64,000 bases of DNA, taken from contig JAQGHF010000002.1 of NCBI GenBank assembly GCA_028288995.1, positions 62,001 to 126,000 of the forward strand. Reading direction: 5' to 3'. Shown here piece after piece: positions 14,642 through 26,678 of this stretch (position 1 is its first letter; every line of letters starts with the position of its first letter). The translations under genes were made by a program, and so were the position numbers. Source of the DNA: Candidatus Saccharimonadota bacterium. GTDB lineage: Bacteria > Patescibacteriota > Saccharimonadia > Saccharimonadales > Saccharimonadaceae. Below the pieces are notes generated by a model that was not told the DNA's origin, made no database searches, and was given only the letters and a program-made list of their open reading frames with translations.

Positions 14642-15313
14642 TTATTTTCTCATTATGGCGACCATAGCGTGGTCACCGTCGATTTCTCTCTGTCCTTTTA
14701 GGAATTCACTGTACGAGAAATAATTCTGGTCTTTGTCGGTTTCGGCAGGGTTATCGATAATGTTGTCGTCTAAAATACCGGCAGTATGCAACTGCTCAAA
14801 GGTTACTTCTTTCATACCTTTATTATCAAGTGCCCAGATCGGATAGACATCTTTTCCCGGTGCAGGTCCAAGCCATACTTTCATCTCTTTAGGGTCGCTA
14901 TCATAGTGAATTTTTAGATACTCAACAAACTTCATCCCACCCTGTTGTTCGAGGCTATGGCGACCCAGGTGAGCGAGACCGAGTACGTGATGCACAGGGT
15001 CGTAGAATGTTGCACAGATGCAGTCAGCGGCAGGAAGAAATAATGCATGATTTGGTTCTGTCACGACAAGTGCGTCGTATGGAATCTCAAGTGTTCCGTA
15101 CATCCCGTCGGATTTATTAGTATCCGTTACTTCAGCGTAACGACAAAAATCATCGGAATCGAACGTTATTCTCATTCGTGTTGATTGTTCGAGGGTAATG
15201 TCGTGAGCAGCAAGAAATACTCTGCGATTCTCGACTACTTTTTGGTCGCCCGGATCATCACTATTAAACATACTTCCGTCTGCAACCGTTGAAGTTGCAA
15301 CAAAAACGTCCAC
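14642..15313 (-). CDS. PgeF/YfiH-like (DUF152) protein, divergent
   Basis: 223 residues with the core signature of the polyphenol-oxidase/purine-nucleoside phosphorylase family: LFLPAADCICATFYDP followed by LGLAHLGRH, supplying the conserved Cys and second His. The first zinc His, normally in a QVHG motif, is not evident: the matching region reads MRITFDSDDF. Active enzyme or degenerate relative cannot be told from sequence. It starts with GTG at 15313 and overlaps the stop of the upstream rel gene by one base (TAGTG), so they form an operon. Confidence 0.75.
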   Translation of the reverse strand: MDVFVATSTVADGSMFNSDDPGDQKVVENRRVFLAAHDITLEQSTRMRITFDSDDFCRYAEVTDTNKSDGMYGTLEIPYDALVVTEPNHALFLPAADCICATFYDPVHHVLGLAHLGRHSLEQQGGMKFVEYLKIHYDSDPKEMKVWLGPAPGKDVYPIWALDNKGMKEVTFEQLHTAGILDDNIIDNPAETDKDQNYFSYSEFLKGQREIDGDHAMVAIMRK

Positions 15314-16905
15314 TACTTTTCTTTCTTCCTCATCGTCTTAACACGAATGATTGCCGCGGCATGACTGATGCCACTAATAATACCGAGTTGGCGTAGCTGT
15401 GCCCGGAGTTTGTTACGTGCGTGTGTAGTGGTGACATGATCAAGCCATGCCTGTTTTGGCGAACTATTCTTTCTCGTCATCACTTCAACGATGTCACCAT
15501 TATGAAGCGGCTCATTGAATGGTCGGATCATGCCATTTACGTGGAATCCGTTAGCGTGCTTACCGATGTCGCTGTGAACAAGATAAGCAAAGTCGAGCGG
15601 TAATGCACCTTCGGGCAGGTTATAGATATCACCCTTTGGAGAGTAGACAAAGATGCGGTCACCAAATAAATCGATGTTAAGCTGATCGGATGTAATATCC
15701 TCACCACCACGAAGTTTGTCCGCAACTTCCTGCAGTTGATTGATCCATTGCATATGAGTTGGAAGGATCGAGCTCTTTTTGCCACGTGTGTAATCTTTTG
15801 AGCCTTTTTGTTCGTGGTAGTGGAAGCTCGCCGCTAGTCCACGCTCTGCAAATTCATGCATATCGTAGGTACGAATCTGGAATTCAATAATCTGTTTCGT
15901 TGGCGTGATGACTGTTGTGTGAAGACTTTGGTAGCCGTTTGGTTTTGGAACGGCAATGTAATCTTTAATACGGGCAATCATTGGCTGATACAGTGAGTGG
16001 AGCACTCCGAGAACGCGGTAACAATCTTCTTTTGTTTCAACAATAATACGGAGCGCCATTAAGTCATATATATCGTCGATGCTACCACTTTTTCGTAGTT
16101 TTTTGTGAAGACTATATACGCTTTTCACGCGACCATTGATTTCGAACTCTACCTTTTCATGGTGGAGGGCTTTAGCGATTTCATCACGAACGATACCTAA
16201 TTTACGCGTACTTTTACCGAGGCGTTTACGAATAAGGTTTCGTAGTTTTTTAAATTCAGTTGGATCGAGGTAGCTAAAGGCGAGCTCCTCAATCTCCATG
16301 CGGACGCGACCCATACCAAGACGGTCGGCCATAGGTCCGAATACTTCGAGACTTTCGCGCGCGATCTTCACCTGTTTTTCTTTTGACATGTGCTGCAGCG
16401 TCTGAAGGTTATGGAGGCGATCTGCGAGTTTGATAATGATGACGCGAACATCTTGTCCGACCGCGATCAAAAGTTTTGAAAGATTATCCTTCGTTTGAGG
16501 GAGGTATTCTGCAAGGTCTTGCATGCCAGCGCGGGCCTGTGAGACTTTGGTGACACCATCAACGAGGAAGGAAACATCTTTGCCAAAAAGTGTTTCAAGT
16601 TGTTCGAGTGTTATGTTTGTGTCTTCAACTGTATCGTGAAGCACGCCTGCAAGGACACTATCGATGTCCATACCCCAATCAATAAGAGTTCCTGCGACAG
16701 AGAGCGGGTGTATAATATATGGCTCACCACTCTTTCGCTTTTGACCAATGTGCGCTTTCGTCGCAATATCAATGGCATGTTCAAGCTCGAGGACTTGATC
16801 CTCCTCATAATGTGGAGCTGCCTTCTCGAGTAATTCACTCTTTTTCATAGCCTTATTAGTATACGGAGAATCGCGGTTTTTGTCAGCTGGAGTTTTCTTT
16901 GACAT
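15313..16905 (-). CDS. rel: Rel/SpoT-type (p)ppGpp synthetase/hydrolase, short form
   Basis: 530 residues, clearly shorter than the usual about 730. An N-terminal HD hydrolase domain (about 40-190, with YIIHPL and LHDTVEDT) precedes a synthetase domain (about 240-360, with IKDYIAVPKPNGYQSLHT and EFQIRT) and a TGS domain (about 405-470). The zinc-finger and ACT domains of standard long RSH proteins are absent. It probably both makes and destroys (p)ppGpp in stress, but ribosome-dependent control through the missing C-terminus would differ. TATACA lies 11 nt before the ATG on the minus strand. Confidence 0.92.
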   Translation of the reverse strand: MSKKTPADKNRDSPYTNKAMKKSELLEKAAPHYEEDQVLELEHAIDIATKAHIGQKRKSGEPYIIHPLSVAGTLIDWGMDIDSVLAGVLHDTVEDTNITLEQLETLFGKDVSFLVDGVTKVSQARAGMQDLAEYLPQTKDNLSKLLIAVGQDVRVIIIKLADRLHNLQTLQHMSKEKQVKIARESLEVFGPMADRLGMGRVRMEIEELAFSYLDPTEFKKLRNLIRKRLGKSTRKLGIVRDEIAKALHHEKVEFEINGRVKSVYSLHKKLRKSGSIDDIYDLMALRIIVETKEDCYRVLGVLHSLYQPMIARIKDYIAVPKPNGYQSLHTTVITPTKQIIEFQIRTYDMHEFAERGLAASFHYHEQKGSKDYTRGKKSSILPTHMQWINQLQEVADKLRGGEDITSDQLNIDLFGDRIFVYSPKGDIYNLPEGALPLDFAYLVHSDIGKHANGFHVNGMIRPFNEPLHNGDIVEVMTRKNSSPKQAWLDHVTTTHARNKLRAQLRQLGIISGISHAAAIIRVKTMRKKEK

Positions 16906-16979
16906 TGCTAGGCCAGTGTATATACTAAAGAGGTTATGATTATTGGCTTAATATGCGTAAGCAGGGGGATGTGGTCAAG

Positions 16980-17996
16980 ATGAGCAAGACAAAAATAGGA
17001 ATTAACGGATTTGGCCGTATTGGACGAAATGCATTTAAAATTGCTTTCGACCGCAGCGATTTAGAAATTATCGCGATTAATGACCTTACAGACACAAAGA
17101 CACTCGCGTACTTGTTGCAACACGACAGCAACTACGGTGCATACAAACACGTTGTTGGGTACGATGAAACCGGTATCATTGTTAATGGACAGCATGTCAA
17201 AGTACTTGCAGAAAAAGATCCCGCAGCACTTCCGTGGGGTGACCTTGGTGTTGAACTCGTTATCGAATCAACAGGACGATTTACTGAAAAAGAAAAAGCT
17301 GAGCTTCACATTCAAGCTGGCGCAAAGCGCGTTGTCATTAGCGGTCCATCAAAGAGCGATGGCGTTGATACAATCGTGCTTGGTGCTAACGAAGACAAGA
17401 TCGCAACCGCATCACAAATCATCAGCAACGCAAGTTGTACGACTAACTCACTCGGTATGGTCATGGCGATCCTTGACGGCGAATTTGGTGTTGAGAAATC
17501 ACTCCTTACGACTGTTCACAGCTACACAGCAAGCCAAGCGCTTCAAGACGCTCCCTCAAAGGACCTTCGTGAAGGTCGTAATGCTGCTGAAAACATCGTT
17601 CCTACAACAACTGGTGCTGCAATTGCAGTGACAAAAACATTGCCACAGCTTGCTGGTAAGTTTGATGGACTCAGTATTCGTGTCCCGACCCCAGTTGTTT
17701 CAATTAGCGACATCACCGTTCTTCTTGGACGCGATACAACAGTTGAAGAAATCAACGAAGTATTTAAGAAAGCTGCAAAAGAGCCGTTCTACCAAGGGAT
17801 TCTTGGTGTGAGCGAAGAGCCACTGGTGAGCCGTGACTACATTGGTAACAGCCACTCTGGTGTTGTTGACCTTCTTCTCACAAAAGTTGTGGGCGGAAAC
17901 CTTGCAAAAATTATGGTCTGGTATGACAACGAATGGGGTTACAGCAACCGTCTCGTTGAACTCATCGCAGATGTGGGAAAGACCTTGCAGGAATAG
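16980..17996 (+). CDS. gap: Glyceraldehyde-3-phosphate dehydrogenase
   Basis: 338 residues, normal length. The NAD-binding Rossmann motif INGFGRIGR is at the N-terminus, catalytic C153 lies in SNASCTTN, and HSYTASQ supplies the active-site His. It oxidises glyceraldehyde-3-phosphate in glycolysis. An ATG at 16953 and a GTG at 16971 are in frame upstream; I chose 16980 because it places the Rossmann motif at the usual distance from the N-terminus and AGGGGG lies upstream, though 11 nt away. It opens the carbon-metabolism block on this strand. Confidence 0.95.
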   Translation: MSKTKIGINGFGRIGRNAFKIAFDRSDLEIIAINDLTDTKTLAYLLQHDSNYGAYKHVVGYDETGIIVNGQHVKVLAEKDPAALPWGDLGVELVIESTGRFTEKEKAELHIQAGAKRVVISGPSKSDGVDTIVLGANEDKIATASQIISNASCTTNSLGMVMAILDGEFGVEKSLLTTVHSYTASQALQDAPSKDLREGRNAAENIVPTTTGAAIAVTKTLPQLAGKFDGLSIRVPTPVVSISDITVLLGRDTTVEEINEVFKKAAKEPFYQGILGVSEEPLVSRDYIGNSHSGVVDLLLTKVVGGNLAKIMVWYDNEWGYSNRLVELIADVGKTLQE

Positions 17997-18038: not shown

Positions 18039-18488
18039 ATGAAGATCTTTTTGGGCAGTGATCACAATGGTTTCCACATGAAGGAAAAAGTATTTGCGTA
18101 TCTTGTGAAGCATGGGTACGATGTTCAAGACGTCGGCGATGAACGGCTTGATCCGGATGACGATTTTCCTCAGTTTGCGCAAGCCGCTGCCCTTCAAGTT
18201 CTTGGCGAACAAGAAGGGGAAGCACGTGCCATCCTCTTGTGCGGCGGTGGTCAAGGTATGGCCATGGCCGCAAATCGTTTTAAAGGTATACGTGCCAGTG
18301 TTGTCTGGGATGCTTTTGAAGCAAAGATGACACGCAACGACAATGATAGTAATGTCCTGGCATTGCCATCACGGGTCCTTGAAAGCGAAGATGGAACATG
18401 GCAGGGCATTATTGAAACATGGCTCAGTACACCATTCGCTTCTGCGGTTCGGTATAAGCGGCGCAATGCTGAGATAGACGAGCTCTAA
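18039..18488 (+). CDS. rpiB: RpiB/LacAB-family sugar-phosphate isomerase
   Basis: 149 residues, RpiB size. The N-terminus GSDHNGFHMKEK matches the phosphate/substrate loop, and the catalytic cysteine is in LLCGGGQGMAMAANRFKGIRA-like sequence. The usual CGTGIG reads CGGGQG, so the threonine used in ring opening is missing and substrate preference could differ from ribose-5-phosphate. Context (rpe and transketolase next door) supports ribose-5-phosphate isomerase. TATACT is at 18021-18026. Confidence 0.85.
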   Translation: MKIFLGSDHNGFHMKEKVFAYLVKHGYDVQDVGDERLDPDDDFPQFAQAAALQVLGEQEGEARAILLCGGGQGMAMAANRFKGIRASVVWDAFEAKMTRNDNDSNVLALPSRVLESEDGTWQGIIETWLSTPFASAVRYKRRNAEIDEL

Positions 18489-18503: not shown

Positions 18504-19148
18504 ATGGCAATAGTGGCGCCAACAATTTTGACAGAGACCTTAGACGACTATAAAACGTCGATTGATCGTTTGGCGCCCTTTGCCAAGCGCGTCCATATTG
18601 ATATTAGTGATGGTGAATTTGCACCTAACTTCCTTCTCGGCGAAGCACAGCTCTACTGGCCGAAAGAATGGGAAGTTGATATTCATGCAATGGTCTCGCG
18701 TCCAAGCGAACATATCGCACAGCTTATCAATTTGAAGCCGAACCTTATCATTTTTCATGCAGAGATCCAGGAAGATCGTGCAGTCCTGGTGAATCAAATC
18801 AAGACTGCGGGCATTAAGGCTGGCGTTGCTTTACTACGTTCGACAGTTCCCTCGACGCTTGCGGATATCATCAGAATTGTTGACCACGTTATGATCTTTT
18901 CTGGAGAACTAGGTAAGAATGGTGGTACCGCAAGTTTGATGCAACTCGAAAAAGTACGACTCGTCAAAGCAATTAACCCTGCAGTAGAAATTGGTTGGGA
19001 TGGCGGGGTCAATTTGGAGAATGCATATACATTGGCGCAGGGTAATGTGAATGTTTTGAACGCGGGCAGTGCTATCTCTGGAGCGGAAGATCCAGCAGCG
19101 GCGTATGAAGCATTGACGAAAGAAATTAATAAACACGGAGTGATTTAG
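18504..19148 (+). CDS. rpe: Ribulose-phosphate 3-epimerase-like protein (divergent)
   Basis: 214-residue TIM barrel. Metal-site positions are kept: HIDISDGEFAPN (His and Asp), DIHAMV, and GWDGGVN near the C-terminus with the catalytic Asp. The phosphate loop, normally NPGFGGQ, is replaced by a stretch reading FSGELGKNGGT, so it is an unusual Rpe. Interconversion of ribulose-5- and xylulose-5-phosphate fits the neighbouring rpiB and transketolase genes. It lies 15 bp after rpiB and 1 bp before the transketolase gene. Confidence 0.78.
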   Translation: MAIVAPTILTETLDDYKTSIDRLAPFAKRVHIDISDGEFAPNFLLGEAQLYWPKEWEVDIHAMVSRPSEHIAQLINLKPNLIIFHAEIQEDRAVLVNQIKTAGIKAGVALLRSTVPSTLADIIRIVDHVMIFSGELGKNGGTASLMQLEKVRLVKAINPAVEIGWDGGVNLENAYTLAQGNVNVLNAGSAISGAEDPAAAYEALTKEINKHGVI

Positions 19149-19149
19149 G

Positions 19150-20013
19150 GTGGATAAACTGACGGTTCCTCAAATACAGCAAAAGGCGAATGACATTCGC
19201 GAAGATATTATTCGTATGCTTGAAAAAGCAGGAAGCGGGCACAGTGCCGGTCCACTTGGGCTTGCTGACATTTTTGCGGCGCTGTATTTTAACATTTTGA
19301 ATATTCGTCCAGAAGACCCTGAATGGGCTGATCGTGATATCTTCTTCCTCAGCAACGGACACACCGTCCCCGTCCAATATGCTGCGATGGCTGAAGCTGG
19401 TTTCTTCGATAAAGAAGAACTCCTGACGCTTCGAGCATTCGGTAGCCGTCTCCAAGGTCACCCAGAACGTGAACGCCTCCCTGGTCTTGAAAACACAAGT
19501 GGTCCTCTTGGGAGCGGACTTTCTCAAGCTGCAGGTTACGCCTACACGATGCAGTACATGGATGCGATCAAACACCGTTACGTCTATGTTGTCATGGGTG
19601 ATGGTGAGCTAGACGAGGGCAATATCTGGGAAGCGGCAATGTTTGCTGGTAAGAACAAACTTTCTCAACTGATTGGGTTTATCGACCGAAACAATATCCA
19701 GATTGATGGAAGCACTGAAGATATTATGCCCCTCGAAGACCTTAAGGGTAAATGGGAGTCATTTGGTTGGCACGTTATTGAAATTGATGGTCATAACATT
19801 GAAAGCATTATTGATGCTGTTAGCCAAGGACGTGCGATTACGAATCGCCCAACGGTAATCATTGCACATACGATCCCAGGTAAGGGCGTCGACTTTATGG
19901 AATATGACTATAAATGGCATGGCACGCCACCAAACAGTGAACAAGCGAAGATTGCACTCGAAAAGTTACGAACACTTGATGGAAAGATTACTCACGAAGG
20001 AGCAGGCGTATGA
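19150..20013 (+). CDS. Transketolase, N-terminal (TPP-binding) subunit
   Basis: 287 residues, starting with GTG. It carries the pyrophosphate-binding half of transketolase: AGSGHSAGPLG, HTVPVQYA and the TPP motif GDGELDEGNIWEA followed by DRNN. The C-terminal half is the next gene, overlapping by 4 bp (ATGA). Two-gene transketolases are known in archaea and some bacteria, so this is a natural split rather than a frameshift. Together the subunits move two-carbon units between pentose and triose/tetrose phosphates. Confidence 0.92.
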   Translation: MDKLTVPQIQQKANDIREDIIRMLEKAGSGHSAGPLGLADIFAALYFNILNIRPEDPEWADRDIFFLSNGHTVPVQYAAMAEAGFFDKEELLTLRAFGSRLQGHPERERLPGLENTSGPLGSGLSQAAGYAYTMQYMDAIKHRYVYVVMGDGELDEGNIWEAAMFAGKNKLSQLIGFIDRNNIQIDGSTEDIMPLEDLKGKWESFGWHVIEIDGHNIESIIDAVSQGRAITNRPTVIIAHTIPGKGVDFMEYDYKWHGTPPNSEQAKIALEKLRTLDGKITHEGAGV

Positions 20014-21005
20014 GTTACCCACTAGACCCTAGCCTATTTAGCGATAACATGAAACTTGATCCAACACGTGCTGGATTTGGTCGTGGTTTGAAAGCTGCGG
20101 GCGAAGCAAACGAAGCAGTCGTTGCGCTATGTGCCGACTTAACTGAAAGCACGCAGATGCATCTCTTTAAAGAAGCATTTCCAAAGCGATTCGTTGAGGT
20201 TGGTGTTGCTGAACAAAACCTCGTCACTGTCGCAAGTGGTATGGCACGTGCTGGAAAAATTCCATTCACGAGTAGCTATGCAGCCTTTAGCCCCGGACGA
20301 AACTGGGAACAGATTCGTACGACCATTGCTTTGAATAATCAACCGGTAAAGATCGTTGGTTCACATGCGGGTATTTACACGGGTAAAGACGGCGCAACCC
20401 ATCAAATGCTTGAAGACATTGCATTGATGCGCGTCCTTCCTAGAATGGTAGTAATTGCCCCAGGTGATGCAATTGAAGCCGAGAAAGCAACAAAAGCAAT
20501 TGCTGAAAATGGCAAACCAAGCTACATTCGTCTCGCTCGTGAAAAGACACCAGTATTTAGCGTGGAAGAGTCACCATTTGAAATTGGTAAGGCATACATC
20601 CTTAAGGATGGAACCGATATTTCACTTATGGGTACCGGAACGATGACCTATCAACTATTGGTTGCTGCAAAGCTGTTGGCTGAACAGGGCATTAACGCTG
20701 AGGTAGTGCACGTTCCAACGATCAAACCACTTGATGAAGAAACAATTGTCGCAAGCGCAAAACGAACTGGTCGCGTGATTACTGCCGAAGAGGCACAGAT
20801 TGCTGGTGGCTTCGGGAGCGCTGTAACAGAACTGTTATCTGAAAAACTTCCTGTACCAATCCACCGATTTGGGATGCAAGATCGATTTGGTGAGTCTGGT
20901 GATCCGAAAGACCTCTTTAAAGCCTTTGGTCTCACCGGGGAGCAGATCGCCGAATCAGTTAAGACATGGTGCGTGGATACTCCTCGGTACCATCAAGAAG
21001 CATAA
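20010..21005 (+). CDS. Transketolase, C-terminal (Pyr and C) subunit
   Basis: 331 residues. The pyrimidine-binding domain (about 15-180) carries the catalytic glutamate in VEVGVAEQNLVTVASG and the FTSSYAAF and GKDGATHQMLEDIA motifs. The transketolase C-terminal domain is about 200-320 (ITAEEAQIAGGFGSAV). It pairs with the preceding subunit and is translationally coupled by the ATGA overlap. Homology to 1-deoxyxylulose-5-phosphate synthase is general to the fold; the split form and context favour transketolase. Confidence 0.92.
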   Translation: MSYPLDPSLFSDNMKLDPTRAGFGRGLKAAGEANEAVVALCADLTESTQMHLFKEAFPKRFVEVGVAEQNLVTVASGMARAGKIPFTSSYAAFSPGRNWEQIRTTIALNNQPVKIVGSHAGIYTGKDGATHQMLEDIALMRVLPRMVVIAPGDAIEAEKATKAIAENGKPSYIRLAREKTPVFSVEESPFEIGKAYILKDGTDISLMGTGTMTYQLLVAAKLLAEQGINAEVVHVPTIKPLDEETIVASAKRTGRVITAEEAQIAGGFGSAVTELLSEKLPVPIHRFGMQDRFGESGDPKDLFKAFGLTGEQIAESVKTWCVDTPRYHQEA

Positions 21006-21056: not shown

Positions 21057-21968
21057 ATGGGCATATCAATTCGAGAGATTCGGGACAATACAACGCGAGC
21101 ACGTCATCTAATGCAACGGTCTCGACAGCAACATTTTGCTGTCGGTGCGTTCAATATTGATAACCAAGATACGATTATTGCAGTTATGGAAGCTGCGCAG
21201 GCGACTAATTCACCAATTCTCGTCGAAGTGACACACGATGAAGTAAAAGCGATGGGACTTGATAATATTCGTGATCTTATCGATAACTACAAGCGTCAAT
21301 ATGGTGTTGAGGTATACATTAACCTTGACCACAGCCCTGCCGTTGAGGATGCAAAGCGTGGAATTGATGCTGGATTTGAATTCATTCACATCGATGTTTC
21401 TCAAGCGAACCATGATGCCACTGACGAAGAGATTATTGCTGCAACAAAAGAAGTGGTGGAGTACGCAAAGTTTACTGGTGCATTGGTTGAAAGTGAACCG
21501 CACTACTTTGGCGGAAGCAGCAATGTTCATACGGAAGACATTGACTACGAAGAAATCAAGAAGACATTCTCAACTCCAGAGGGTGCGAAAGCCTTTGTTG
21601 ATGCAACAGGTATCGATACGTTTGCTGCCGCAATTGGAAATCTCCACGGTAAGTATCCTGTTCCAAAACAACTTGACCTCGAGCTCTTGCAGGCAATTCG
21701 CGACAATATAGATTGTCAGATTAGCCTTCATGGCGGAAGTGGTACACCCGGTGAATACTTCCAAAAAGCTGCACAAATTGGTGTGAGTAAAGTAAATATT
21801 AATAGTGACTTACGATTTGCATTCCGCGAAAATCTTGTAAAGGTCCTTGCTGACAATCCTGATCAATACGCTGTCGTAAAGATTATGGAACCAGTTCGTG
21901 AAGCCGTTCGTGCTGTTGTAGAAGAAAAGATTGCTGCACTTGGATGTGCAGGCAAAGCAGTTCTTTAG
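21057..21968 (+). CDS. fba: Class II fructose-bisphosphate aldolase
   Basis: 303 residues. Zinc and substrate motifs are visible: VYINLDHSP, the ESEPHYFGGS stretch (variant of the usual ExExGxIGG), AIGNLHGKYP, ISLHGGSGTP and VNINSDLRFAF. It cleaves or forms fructose 1,6-bisphosphate (tagatose bisphosphate is also possible in this family). It has its own TATACT near 21009 and an AGGGGG SD before the ATG. A terminator shared with tal follows. Confidence 0.9.
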   Translation: MGISIREIRDNTTRARHLMQRSRQQHFAVGAFNIDNQDTIIAVMEAAQATNSPILVEVTHDEVKAMGLDNIRDLIDNYKRQYGVEVYINLDHSPAVEDAKRGIDAGFEFIHIDVSQANHDATDEEIIAATKEVVEYAKFTGALVESEPHYFGGSSNVHTEDIDYEEIKKTFSTPEGAKAFVDATGIDTFAAAIGNLHGKYPVPKQLDLELLQAIRDNIDCQISLHGGSGTPGEYFQKAAQIGVSKVNINSDLRFAFRENLVKVLADNPDQYAVVKIMEPVREAVRAVVEEKIAALGCAGKAVL

Positions 21969-21991: not shown

Positions 21992-22027
21992 AAAAGCTAT
22001 TGCGTCATTTTTGACGTGATAGCTTTT
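21992..22027. terminator. Shared fba/tal terminator
   Basis: Hairpin with outer arms AAAAGCTAT (21992-22000) and ATAGCTTTT (22019-22027) and inner arms CGTCA and TGACG around a T loop. It overlaps the last codons of minus-strand tal, and A/T runs on both sides allow termination from both directions. Confidence 0.85.
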
Positions 22028-23076
22028 AGTAATGAGTCAAAAGATGCTTGGAACTTTTGGATTCCTTCGTTTTCGAGAGTTTTAGCAACTGATGCAAAAT
22101 CGATGCCGACCCGCTCAAGGTTACTCATGGTTTCTTTTGCGTGCTCAATATAGTCGCTCGAAATAGCTTGAGTGTTCTCTGGAAGGTGATCAATAATTTT
22201 TGTAATTGTGTCTTCCGGTAATGTGTTCACCGTATGAGGTGCAACAAGGTAGGTAACATACATAAGGTCATCGTACGCAGGGTTCTTGGTTGAAGTTGAA
22301 GCCCAGAGCAATCGTTGGATGCCAGCGCCATCTGGGTTTGTCTCGAGCATCCTAGCGAACTTATCAAGGAAAATGCTATAAGCGATATGTGCTTGAGCGA
22401 CAGCTGCTTGACCGCGAAGATCAAGTGCTTCCTGTGTGCCAATTACTTCGAGTCGCTTGTCGATTTCGCTATCAACACGACTGACGAAGAAAGACGCGAC
22501 GCTTCGTGCCAAGTTTTCTCGCCCTAGTTCGTGTGATGCAAGATGTGCGTCAGCAACTAAGTTGTAGTGGTCAAGACTGAAGATAAGTGTCACATTGACG
22601 TTAATGCCTGCAAGAAGTAGGTCGCGAATAATTGGCATACTTGCATCGGTTGCTGGAACTTTTACCATAAGGTTTGGCTGACCAACTTCTTGCCAAAGGC
22701 GTTTTGCTTGCTCGAGGGTTGACATAGGGTCTTCTGCGAGTCGGGGAGATACCTCAAGTGAAACGAAACCATCACCACCGTTACTCTCGTCCCAGATAGG
22801 ACGAAGTAATGCGGCAGCTTCCTTAATATCGTCTTCAATGATTCGCCAGTAAATTGTTTCAGCATCCGCACCAGTGGCGGCAAGTGTTTTAATTTGCTCA
22901 TCGTAGGCGCCGCTACCAAGAATGGCTTTCTCGAGAATCGTTGGATTAGAGGTAACACCACGGACTCCGTTTGAAACGTAGTCAGCTAGTTTTCCTGAGT
23001 GAAGGAGGTCTCTGCTTAGGTTATCGAGCCATGGACTTTGATTAAATTGCTGGTGAAGCTTTTCAAGGTTATTCAT
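21997..23076 (-). CDS. tal: Transaldolase
   Basis: 359 residues, the longer transaldolase type. The N-terminal GVTSNPTIL is diagnostic, and the Schiff-base lysine is in NLMVKVPATDA, with NVNVTLIFSLDHY and the SFFVSRVDSEID phosphate region further on. It transfers dihydroxyacetone units and completes the non-oxidative pentose phosphate set with the genes on its left. TATACT on the minus strand (23085-23090) is 8 nt before the ATG with no SD, so the transcript is probably leaderless. The start lies 36 bp from that of the divergent PfkB-type kinase. Confidence 0.95.
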   Translation of the reverse strand: MNNLEKLHQQFNQSPWLDNLSRDLLHSGKLADYVSNGVRGVTSNPTILEKAILGSGAYDEQIKTLAATGADAETIYWRIIEDDIKEAAALLRPIWDESNGGDGFVSLEVSPRLAEDPMSTLEQAKRLWQEVGQPNLMVKVPATDASMPIIRDLLLAGINVNVTLIFSLDHYNLVADAHLASHELGRENLARSVASFFVSRVDSEIDKRLEVIGTQEALDLRGQAAVAQAHIAYSIFLDKFARMLETNPDGAGIQRLLWASTSTKNPAYDDLMYVTYLVAPHTVNTLPEDTITKIIDHLPENTQAISSDYIEHAKETMSNLERVGIDFASVAKTLENEGIQKFQASFDSLLKAITSKMTQ

Positions 23077-23105: not shown

Positions 23106-23112
23106 AGTGCAT

Positions 23113-24078
23113 ATGGTTATAATTTGCGCGCTGGGTGCTGCTTCACAAGATGTCTTCCTGAGCGGCAAAGGCATAAGCTCTCAACTCGATGCCTCGTCCA
23201 ACGAGTATGTTGAAGAATTTAAATTAGGAGCTAAGCTCAACGTTGAACATGTTCTTTTTGCGACTGGTGGTGGTGCAACAAACGCCGCAGTTACATTTAG
23301 TCGCCAAGGACTTGAAGCAAGTTTTATTGGTCGTGTAGGCAAGGACATTGCCGGGCATGGAGTTTTAAGTGAACTCGATAAGGAACACGTTGATACCTCC
23401 AAAACTATTTACGACGAAGTATTAGGTACTCAGTATTCGACGATTCTCGTGACAGAATCAGGTGAGCGAACTATTTTGGTATATCGTGGTGCTGCCCAGG
23501 CACATACGGCAAAAGAATACGAGGAAATTGATTTTAAAAGCTATGGATGGTTATACGTATCATCATTTGGCGGTGCATATGAAGCGCTGGACATTATTTT
23601 TGATCATGCAAAAAAATCTGGTATAAAAATTGCCTTTAATCCTGGTCAAGCAGAGCTTGATCAGCCTGAACTCTTAAAAGGTTTGCTTGAAGACGTTGAA
23701 GTGCTACTGCTTAATAAAGATGAAGCAGCACTTGTCGTTGAAGGTAGTTCAAGTGAAGAACTTGCTCATCACTTGCTACACTATGTTCCTGTCGCCGTCG
23801 TGAGTGATGGTCCTAATGGTGTTGTAGCAACGGATGGAAAGACAATTATTGAAGCCGGAATGTACGAAGATGTTCCCGTTATCGATCGAACCGGTGCTGG
23901 CGATGCCTTTGGATCTGGGTTTGTGAGTCAGTATGCTCAGGGCAAATCGATAAAAGAAGCGGTTGTATTTGGAAGTGCAAATTCAACATCAGTTGTAACG
24001 AAATTTGGAGCAAAAGAGGGTATTTTACATCAAGGTACTGTTCTTCACGATATGCCGGTTAAAGAGAGGGAATTTTAA
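23113..24078 (+). CDS. PfkB-family carbohydrate kinase
   Basis: 321 residues in the ribokinase superfamily. Sequence shows the N-terminal TGGGATNAAVTFSRQG sugar-binding motif, the FIGRVGKD region, and the C-terminal ATP/anion-hole motif DRTGAGDAFGSGF with the catalytic Asp. The substrate could be ribose, fructose, adenosine or a sugar phosphate; the place next to pentose-phosphate genes suggests a sugar entering that pathway, as inference. The ATG at 23113 is preferred to a GTG at 23107, since TATCAT ends 7 nt before it. Confidence 0.85.
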   Translation: MVIICALGAASQDVFLSGKGISSQLDASSNEYVEEFKLGAKLNVEHVLFATGGGATNAAVTFSRQGLEASFIGRVGKDIAGHGVLSELDKEHVDTSKTIYDEVLGTQYSTILVTESGERTILVYRGAAQAHTAKEYEEIDFKSYGWLYVSSFGGAYEALDIIFDHAKKSGIKIAFNPGQAELDQPELLKGLLEDVEVLLLNKDEAALVVEGSSSEELAHHLLHYVPVAVVSDGPNGVVATDGKTIIEAGMYEDVPVIDRTGAGDAFGSGFVSQYAQGKSIKEAVVFGSANSTSVVTKFGAKEGILHQGTVLHDMPVKEREF

Positions 24079-24079
24079 C

Positions 24080-26038
24080 ATGGCAAAATTTTTACGAGAC
24101 TTATTAGATGCAGAAGAACCAATCTTTACGGAGTCACTTCGTCAGCTTGAACATGCAAGTGGTCGTACGGCTGCTGATACGAAATTAATTGGTGACATCG
24201 TTGCGAAAGCACACGAGAATCTTCGTCAAATGGGACTGAGTCCTGCCATTGCGACTGGCGAGGAAGTCTACCATGGTCTTGAAGCTCGACTTGAAAGTGA
24301 TATTAAGCGCCTCGTTCGAATTATTGGCGCTGAAGAGTCTCGATCTGAAGATGTGCAGTATCTTGTGCCGTTTATGGTGAAAGCTGCTAATAGCGTCAAC
24401 TTCAACCGTAAGGTATTTGTCATCAAGCACGAAAGTGCAAAAAACCTCCTTCGCCAAATGCCACCGAAGGCATTGATGGAAAAACTTGGCTACGATGATA
24501 TCGAAGCAATGTTTGATCACGAAGACTTTAGTGAACTTTACACCGCTCTTCGTTTCTCTGAAGGTCCTGAATGGCTCAATAGGTATGATGAACTGTTTGA
24601 AACTGTTACACCTGAAGACTATGAAGAACGCGACCTTAAAATTGTTGTTATGGACCACAACAAGTATGTCGATCTTGCAGCTCACTTCGTGCAAAAGAAG
24701 CTTCACAATGTGACACACACAAAAGAAATGGGTGTGATTGTGGTGACACCCATGTACGCCAAGACGATGCGTGGTCTTGTGTTGAAAACGCTGCCACTTT
24801 TGTTTCATTACATGAACGAAGTAAAGCTCTACTCGACATTCTTCAAGCTAAAGAGTCAACAGCCGCATTTTGGTAAGACTGTGGTGAGTACATTGGTTGC
24901 AGACCCAGGCGATGCAAGCCTGATGGTTGGTCACAAAATTCACTGGCGTGTGATTCAGCGGTACCTTGGTAAGCACAAAGAAGACAGCATTAGTACGATT
25001 GCCTTTGAGCCACACGTACAACCAGAAGATCTTCACTGGCGACGTGCTGAAGATCTCCTTTTTGAACTTGACCCAGAACTAGAATTCTGGAAAGATCGTG
25101 ACTACGTTGGACTTATATATGACGGCTTTCCAGTTGCATTCAACCTTTTTGATGTCAGCTTTGCGTATTCAAACAAAGAACCATATGAAAATCGTTACGC
25201 GTATCACTTCCGCGAAAGTTTGTGGAACGAAATCTTTGTCCGTTACATGGGCTTCAAGAACTTGGCTTCACAGGTACTTGAGAAACTTGATAACAGCGCT
25301 GTTTCACCTGAAAAGTTACCTGTCAGGAAACCAAAGACCGTGCCTGCGCTTCGAAGAGAGAATTCGAAACATGATTTGCTAGTGAGAAGGAGACTCATCG
25401 ATGCAGCCGAGGGTCGTCTTGATGGTGTGACTGAGGAGTTTGATAAAGTGTTCGACATGCTTGGTAAGTATGACAAAACGGTCACTGTTTTTGGATCCGC
25501 ACGGAAACCACAAGAAGATGGCATTTCTTCAAATGCATACGAACTTTCTCGCCGACTTGCAGGTGATGGCTATGCAGTCGTCACTGGCGGCGGTTACGGG
25601 GTTATGGAGGCATCGAATAGAGGTGCTTATGATGCCGGGGGTAACTCAATCGGATTGAATATCCTTCTGCCACATGAGCAAAGTCTCAATAACTACACGA
25701 CCGAAAGCTTTCAATTTCAGCATTTCTTTGGTCGCAAGGTCGCAATGACACTTGATGCAAGTGCCTACATCTTTTTTGCGGGCGGCTTCGGAACACTCGA
25801 TGAATTATTTGAAATTCTTGCACTCGAAGAGACAAATAAAATTCCACGTGCACCAATCATTCTGGTTGGCTCAGACTTCTGGGGACCAGTTGACGAATTG
25901 ATACGAACACTCCTCTTAGAGCGCTTTGGAACAATTAGCGACAACGATCATAAGCTCTATAAAGTCATGGATAATCACGATGATATTATTCATGTCATCA
26001 ACCAGTATGAGCATGAGTTGAACAAGTCAAAAGATTAA
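24080..26038 (+). CDS. Large protein: unknown N-terminal region fused to LOG/TIGR00730-like domain
   Basis: 652 residues. The C-terminal about 190 residues form a LOG-type Rossmann domain (VTVFGSARKP, VTGGGYGVMEASNRGA, and AGGFGTLDELFE in the place of PGGxGTxxE), the fold of cytokinin-activating nucleoside-5'-monophosphate phosphoribohydrolases. The N-terminal about 450 residues match no family I recognise; they are largely charged and helical, with a hydrophobic stretch near 225-245 (GVIVVTPMYAKTMRGLVL). Plain LOG proteins are about 180-250 residues, so this architecture is unusual. The ATG at 24080, 1 bp after the kinase stop with GAGAGGG upstream, is the start. Function: perhaps nucleotide turnover, inferred from the C-terminus only. 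Confidence 0.75.
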   Translation: MAKFLRDLLDAEEPIFTESLRQLEHASGRTAADTKLIGDIVAKAHENLRQMGLSPAIATGEEVYHGLEARLESDIKRLVRIIGAEESRSEDVQYLVPFMVKAANSVNFNRKVFVIKHESAKNLLRQMPPKALMEKLGYDDIEAMFDHEDFSELYTALRFSEGPEWLNRYDELFETVTPEDYEERDLKIVVMDHNKYVDLAAHFVQKKLHNVTHTKEMGVIVVTPMYAKTMRGLVLKTLPLLFHYMNEVKLYSTFFKLKSQQPHFGKTVVSTLVADPGDASLMVGHKIHWRVIQRYLGKHKEDSISTIAFEPHVQPEDLHWRRAEDLLFELDPELEFWKDRDYVGLIYDGFPVAFNLFDVSFAYSNKEPYENRYAYHFRESLWNEIFVRYMGFKNLASQVLEKLDNSAVSPEKLPVRKPKTVPALRRENSKHDLLVRRRLIDAAEGRLDGVTEEFDKVFDMLGKYDKTVTVFGSARKPQEDGISSNAYELSRRLAGDGYAVVTGGGYGVMEASNRGAYDAGGNSIGLNILLPHEQSLNNYTTESFQFQHFFGRKVAMTLDASAYIFFAGGFGTLDELFEILALEETNKIPRAPIILVGSDFWGPVDELIRTLLLERFGTISDNDHKLYKVMDNHDDIIHVINQYEHELNKSKD

Positions 26039-26096
26039 GCATTTACTTTTTGGCGTTAGCGAATTATGCTAGGCGTATAAGGTAGTGGGGTGTTTG

Positions 26097-26678
26097 ATGA
26101 AATTGGGGGCAAGGATGAAGAGCAAGCGAGGTCTCATTGTCATAATCATTGTTCTAGGGATAGTGTTGCTTGTCGTTGGCGCCGTTGTGCTTACGAAAAA
26201 AACAACCCAACCATCAGCCACTGATACTTCAAAACAAGTCACGGCTGCAAAAGACACGACGACAGAGACGGATGTAACCGATGGAGTCTCCAGCGCAACG
26301 GCTTCAACCACGCCAGCGGTTGACCCTGGAACACTGACGTCAGTCGATATTGCACCGTTTGGTGTTACTGTATTTTACTCGAAAGGAACACCAGGCTTTG
26401 AGTTTACTGTGCTAAAGACAGCTGATCGAACGCAATATGTTCAATTCACTTCTTCTGATCTTGTTGGGACAAAGTGTACGAATGACCAAGGCGCCTTTGC
26501 TTCGATCATTAAAAACCCATCTACCAGTGAAGCTCAGACAACCTCACAAACAACAAAAGTAGGTAATGATACCTACGGATTGTCGCTCGCGAGTGCGGGT
26601 TGCACAGGTAACGCTGACCTATTGACACAGTATCAAACTGGTTTCAAAAACGGCTTTACAAGTCTCAAGGCCCTGTAA
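26097..26678 (+). CDS. Membrane-anchored extracytoplasmic protein, unknown
   Basis: 193 residues: a basic N-terminus, one membrane helix (about 12-34), a Thr/Ser/Ala-rich linker to about 80 and a small globular domain with two cysteines (about 127 and 177) that could form a disulfide. No family recognised. Starts at 26085 (GTG), 26097 (ATG) and 26115 (ATG) are all possible; 26097 has GGGGTG just upstream, but 26115 would place the basic residues directly before the helix. No lipobox is visible. Confidence 0.6.
   Translation: MKLGARMKSKRGLIVIIIVLGIVLLVVGAVVLTKKTTQPSATDTSKQVTAAKDTTTETDVTDGVSSATASTTPAVDPGTLTSVDIAPFGVTVFYSKGTPGFEFTVLKTADRTQYVQFTSSDLVGTKCTNDQGAFASIIKNPSTSEAQTTSQTTKVGNDTYGLSLASAGCTGNADLLTQYQTGFKNGFTSLKAL

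Follow-up and report, generated by a model that had tools for sequence, protein, structure and literature searches.

The window, a stretch of 64,000 nucleotides from the genome of a Candidatus Saccharimonadota bacterium, carries a row of genes which, judged from their sequences, is the non-oxidative pentose-phosphate pathway. The row starts with glyceraldehyde-3-phosphate dehydrogenase (GAPDH, 16953–17996) and continues with ribose-5-phosphate isomerase B (RpiB, 18039–18488), ribulose-phosphate 3-epimerase (Rpe, 18504–19148), the N- and C-terminal halves of transketolase as separate genes (19150–20013 and 20010–21005) and a member of the class II fructose-bisphosphate aldolase family (21057–21968), all on the plus strand. 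Rpe and both transketolase halves are named from best matches below the curated cut-offs, and the best matches of the aldolase fall just below theirs. An antisense transaldolase (21997–23076, minus strand) lies between the aldolase and a PfkB-family sugar kinase (23107–24078, plus strand), the latter being the only PF00294 match in the genome and reaching no NCBIfam equivalog cut-off. The PfkB gene stops at 24078 and, after one base, the ATG at 24080 opens a gene coding for a protein of 652 aa (24080–26038, plus strand, according to the open reading frame and its translation) in which an N-terminal part, here called N, is fused to a LOG domain. Downstream of this N-LOG gene there is a small gene followed by UvrB- and GatCAB-like genes, named by eye. 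The small gene (26085–26678) encodes a protein of 197 residues in which inspection by eye shows a hydrophobic stretch close to the N terminus and which matches nothing in Pfam or NCBIfam; it is present in 11 of the 12 loci found by the contig search described below and absent from L010.

The reading frame and its C-terminal LOG domain, as given in the preliminary description, were both borne out, the domain by a TIGR00730 score of 134.5 bits against a curated cut-off of 96.35 (residues 466–643) and by PF03641 at 105.4 bits. The motifs GGGYGVMEA and AGGFGTLDE are present as quoted there, at residues 503–511 and 567–575. The same description regarded about 450 N-terminal residues as unknown; residues 1–430 indeed gave no credible match in Pfam, NCBIfam, PADLOC or the PDB sequences, while the boundary lies nearer residue 415–430. 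Within N, residues 1–75 (24080–24304) form the first half of what is here referred to as the frame, shared with the frame-PfkB2 proteins discussed below (profile match with 99.7% probability over 75 columns), and residues 335–405 (25082–25294) form its second half. The middle segment between them (residues 76–334, 24305–25081), missing in the frame-PfkB2 proteins, contains both the most conserved block of N (311–337) and the least conserved one (76–110). A variable linker at about residues 416–446 (25325–25418) has the highest dN of the protein, 0.18–0.29 in three comparisons, and a helix, a candidate for the N-terminal one that builds the hexamer in type-II LOGs, is predicted at 450–461, where the model has a pLDDT of 39–65 and ahead of which the sequence alignment to type-II LOG already begins. 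The type-II LOG domain itself, with the catalytic R552 and E575, occupies residues 466–643 (25475–26008), all segments being on the plus strand.

The fusion is real and not an assembly artefact, since full-length fused open reading frames (646–682 codons, 60–89% identity) were found in all 12 loci of relatives identified by the contig search, one of them on the complete chromosome CP075337.1, and since 13 of the 17 genomes of the window's genus carry it. In a further genome of the genus (G010) the LOG part lies at a contig end. When the contig loci and the genus survey were matched by contig positions, 11 of the 12 loci proved to belong to genomes also in the survey, and with L010, G004 and the window added the sequence search for the same architecture arrives at 14 distinct genomes with the fusion. 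The view that normal LOG proteins are single-domain overlooked PpnN, which has two flanking domains (PMC6717881). In a literature search confined to one library, the best-ranked entries (the first 15 of 498, 17 and 437) had no title or abstract start describing the N-LOG architecture or tying LOG to this gene row. N-LOG joins a known class of enzyme, in a new architecture, to a partner family that is widespread and undescribed.

By sequence and by predicted fold the LOG part is nearest to type-II LOGs, the best matches being CgLOGII (Cg1261), TtLOGII (TT1465) and the Neisseria structure 9us2, at 39–41% identity and Z of about 26. The window protein retains their AMP-site residues and the stretch preceding the Rossmann core but differs in its conserved N-terminal part of about 430 residues, where CgLOGII has a disordered stretch of 40 residues (PMC5379747). 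R552 and E575 align with the catalytic Arg155 and Glu178 of CgLOGII (PMC5379747), and the equivalents of Phe152, Lys156, Asp177, Gly171, Phe173, Gly174 and Thr175 are all retained, including the four AMP-contacting residues of the motif (Gly171, Phe173, Gly174 and Thr175; 4/4). The strict motif PGGxGTxxE is matched at eight of nine places, P170 of CgLOGII being A567 in the window protein. This proline is not among the AMP contacts named for CgLOGII in the excerpted text of PMC5379747, and P, A or G alternate at the first place of PGG among close relatives. The suggestion that the altered motif matters finds no support: all the residues named for AMP binding and catalysis are kept, and within the motif P170 alone has changed. 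The AGG form looks trivial. Among the five residues of the prenyl pocket there is one change, M185 to L582, as in TT1465. Type-II LOGs cleave AMP to adenine and ribose 5-phosphate (PMC5379747). A match to PsyrA in PADLOC (19.6 bits, E 1e-4, residues 466–525) is weak, falls on the shared Rossmann core and is the sole PADLOC match, and a role in defence was accordingly rejected.

Profile searches of Pfam and NCBIfam revealed no well-described family covering the N-terminal part, in agreement with the preliminary description. Isolated weak Pfam matches to GPDPase_memb (1/36 rows, E 4e-4) and RTP (3/36, best E 0.0046) were set aside because they appear in at most three of the 36 rows and are unsupported by the others. 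That N could be a degenerate PfkB or LOG was ruled out by profile-profile comparison; the probability against PfkB was 0.3% and a Pfam PfkB match is absent. The 36-row N profile is matched by the window at 637.6 bits over positions 1–410, by construction since the window is itself a row of the profile. In a sample of 286 genomes spread over the phylum, the profile found N or the frame in 29, seven by the frame only and nine outside the class, class membership and the frame-only subdivision being counted by hand. Scanned viral contigs gave no relative. In other families of the order N is encoded on its own, at about 415 residues. Three comparisons give N a dN of 0.05–0.11 at dS values of 0.83 and above, mostly saturated, to be compared with a dN of 0.08–0.10 for LOG and that of the linker given above. 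In a diverse, hand-picked subset of 14 N sequences there are 14 invariant positions, nine of which are charged, His or aromatic (D180, E182, E216, H243, F264, W289, W337, D358 and W382). These sequence comparisons set N apart as a separate Patescibacteria family under purifying selection.

Structure prediction of the N-terminal part was run and searched, giving models of low confidence. The full-length model has a pLDDT of 62 and the rows of its fold search cover the LOG part, whereas the N-only model has a pLDDT of 49 and a best Z of 5.5 (3o0y, 204 residues, 5.5 Å), and in Foldseek it finds nothing that reaches E 0.001, the best hit having E 0.74. The alignment behind the models left out the more divergent N relatives, and with such low confidence they point neither to a known nor to a new fold. 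One divergent relative from outside the class (L093:5020–6201, 75 bits) has no PfkB match upstream and is followed by an open frame of 1196 codons.

The slot after PfkB was compared in 64 loci, gaps being measured between stop-to-stop frames and L013–L024 left out as duplicate loci. A same-strand PfkB lies less than 1 kb upstream of N or the frame in 62 of these, the exceptions being L087 and L093. The aldolase precedes in 46 of the 64 loci and a UvrB-like gene follows N or the frame in 47, several loci ending too early; in L046, labelled as frame alone or cut, the contig ends inside N. The frame is a shortened N, found in the window's family, which keeps residues 1–75 and 335–405 and lacks the middle, and in 10 of the 64 loci it is joined to a second PfkB kinase (PfkB2). 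These frame-PfkB2 proteins (L049–L056, L058 and L098) share with N-LOG the slot after PfkB and the two frame halves, but they are without the middle segment and their kinase comes from another clade than the window's PfkB; in trees PfkB2 clades with the PfkB that precedes N in 18 loci from other families. In G013 (L059:4351–6671) the frame (179 codons), a second PfkB (336) and a type-II LOG (259) are three separate open frames, while in its near relative G012 the frame and PfkB2 form one, so fusions and splits recur in this slot.

The PfkB of the window groups with those of L003, L054, L060 and L098 (465–497 bits; a five-row clade, 100/100), and the ones of L001 and L002 are less similar to it (357 and 348 bits), though the N-LOG proteins of the latter two are 87–89% identical to that of the window. 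An antisense transaldolase adjoins PfkB in the window as well as in L003, L054, L060 and L098, and as this holds for all five loci of the clade, PfkB and transaldolase look to have been swapped together as a pair. L045 has a transaldolase at the same place with a PfkB of another clade.

To describe the association with LOG, 118 genomes of the order were surveyed for two types, sLOG (SLOG cluster 4 proteins, PF18306) and LOG-B (type II LOG), adjacency meaning less than 2,500 bases on the same contig. Cross-matches between the types and DprA-like matches were omitted, and split matches were merged into one span. N was found in 103 genomes and the frame in seven, together 110, and a counted LOG of either type is present in 109 of these; the one without it (G045) is truncated where its contig ends. 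The two types occur together in one of the 118 genomes by the thresholds used (Fisher p 3e-18, the genomes not being independent). The sLOG counts omit G055 and G354 (101 and 124 bits, both without N), whose inclusion gives p = 6e-20, as well as second copies in G365, G370 and G378; those of LOG-B omit weaker matches (for example C11 of G048 at 76 bits, G386 and G410 at 55–58 bits) and include G407, a piece of 70 residues at a contig end. In 84 of the 103 N genomes and five of the seven frame genomes, an sLOG follows on the same strand at no more than about 1 kb from the match; the median gap between the N and sLOG matches is 54 bases. LOG-B is convergent beside N or the frame in six genomes, upstream and adjacent in one, fused in three, and present without N or frame in three others. 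In the order the place after N is usually taken by sLOG. It carries the same R and GG.G(S/T)..E signature as the fused LOG, but it is encoded separately, shares about 30% identity with the fused domain and nearly excludes LOG-B from the genome.

In a tree of 17 LOG-B rows, nine fused and two unfused rows of the window's genus make up one clade (100/99), inside which the unfused pair groups, though weakly (86/76), with one divergent fused row, so that fusion followed by separation is possible on this topology. In our reading LOG-B took the place of sLOG beside N and then fused to it. Outside the class the link between LOG and N is weaker than in the order. In the 286-genome sample sLOG is present in five of the nine N-bearing genomes outside the class against 45 of the 252 others (p 0.015, counted by hand), and in L088 it lies 5.5 kb from N.

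The best explanation, put forward tentatively and at somewhat less than an even chance, is that N-LOG is a nucleotide-ribose salvage enzyme in which N couples a putatively active LOG domain to PfkB and the ribose 5-phosphate is burned via the gene row. The LOG domain would hydrolyse nucleoside 5'-monophosphates to base and ribose 5-phosphate, which would pass to RpiB, Rpe, transketolase, transaldolase, aldolase, PfkB and GAPDH and then be burned. N is constantly found with PfkB, its frame is fused to PfkB and LOG is its companion in the order, from which we infer that N is the coupling part; it would act together with PfkB and, within the order, LOG, most likely by docking LOG or gating it in response to the kinase's state or its sugar phosphates. 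In the window's genus N and LOG are mostly a single polypeptide. The proposal in the preliminary description that base release is coupled to another activity thus gains from the gene context and from two LOG types beside N, one of them fused; the partner activity can be narrowed to that of a PfkB-kinase-associated protein of pentose-phosphate gene rows.

The genome holds one PF03641 LOG and one PfkB, and no match in it was found to the PRPP synthase N-domain (PF13793) or to PF00365 PFK, absences that are probable and not certain as the genome is 98% complete; a search for Pribosyltran gave one match over the cut-off. With no PRPP synthase match, no way of returning ribose 5-phosphate to nucleotides is seen and, PF00365 PFK being unmatched too, freed ribose 5-phosphate would most plausibly enter the pathway of the gene row. 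A rhizosphere Saccharibacterium has been inferred to rely on external nucleotides and to be without PFK and PRPP synthesis (PMC6031116), and PFK is rare across CPR genomes (PMC7304191). Several observations count against this explanation. AMP hydrolysis by a type-II LOG requires long incubation (PMC5379747), 568–790 bases separate PfkB from N or the frame in six of the 62 loci, and three of the 17 genomes of the genus (G003, G012 and G013) have another arrangement. LOG-B lies elsewhere, distant or on another contig, in nine genomes, the latter perhaps partly reflecting broken assemblies (the N of G376 is at a contig start), eight of the 118 genomes have neither N nor frame, five of these with a counted LOG, and outside the class no sLOG was found within 1.1 kb downstream in the eight of nine N loci with more than that length of downstream sequence.

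The main rival to coupling gives N an enzymatic activity of its own, in sugar-phosphate or nucleotide metabolism, and makes the fusion a bifunctional channelling enzyme; this reading is conceivable but rather doubtful. It agrees with N standing alone beside PfkB, with no neighbouring LOG, in other classes and with the invariant charged, His and aromatic positions of the picked subset; however, N has no family or fold match to any enzyme, the models being weak, and relatives without the middle segment have a second PfkB in the slot, so that an enzymatic activity of N would have to be dispensable or replaceable. Gating by alarmones, with N acting as the PAG domains do in PpnN and (p)ppGpp opening the LOG site, appears improbable. 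PpnN (YgdH) is a multi-domain LOG relative gated by (p)ppGpp, likewise a larger protein built around a LOG-type core, and releases base and ribose 5-phosphate (PMC6717881); its chains match the LOG part at Z of about 19–20, and a RelA/SpoT family gene lies on the opposite strand, upstream of the row (15313–16905). On the other hand, the five Pfam matches obtained at E 10 or below include neither PAG1 (DUF4478) nor PAG2 (DUF3412) (HMMER filters drop most matches above 0.1), NF038390 (PpnN) scores 17.5 bits against a cut-off of 450, and the window protein, with a much larger N and no C-terminal domain, leaves no space for a C-terminal PAG2 beyond residue 643.

Two further readings concern the LOG domain itself. 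It might be a nucleotide sensor, not an enzyme, that reports the nucleotide level to N and PfkB, and with a Saccharibacterium inferred to depend on outside nucleotides (PMC6031116) such sensing would be useful; against this, none of the 17 aligned LOG-B rows departs from the catalytic Arg and Glu, nor any of the 24 sLOG rows from the residues at the same motif places, and the reading is very unlikely. Slightly less likely still is a role of LOG in producing cytokinin-type signals for a host or plant, a role proposed for the Saccharibacteria LOG of Ca. T. rhizospherense (PMC6031116). An IPPT family gene is present in the genome, but as IPPT occurs in 10 of 14 control genomes this says little, and the reading loses further because the N-LOG gene sits in a pentose-phosphate row and LOG beside N is the rule in the order.

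A stronger form of the salvage explanation, which we regard as possible and no better than doubtful, is that N is an undescribed Patescibacteria enzyme or allosteric module complexed with PfkB and LOG, making host-derived nucleotides an energy source. If true, nucleoside monophosphates would be split to base and ribose 5-phosphate and the latter led into glycolysis, making this a counterpart of the known nucleotide-ribose routes that does without RuBisCO and AMP phosphorylase. Such routes are known from archaea and some CPR bacteria. Saccharibacteria are reported not to make nucleotides, and their energy supply is poorly known. A LOG wired into the pentose-phosphate row across most of the order would make the idea that nucleotide ribose is burned directly testable, and caution is advised when reading Saccharibacteria LOG genes as plant-hormone genes. 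As N or its frame is conserved and unannotated in 110 of 118 genomes, its function would fill a gap in core metabolism.
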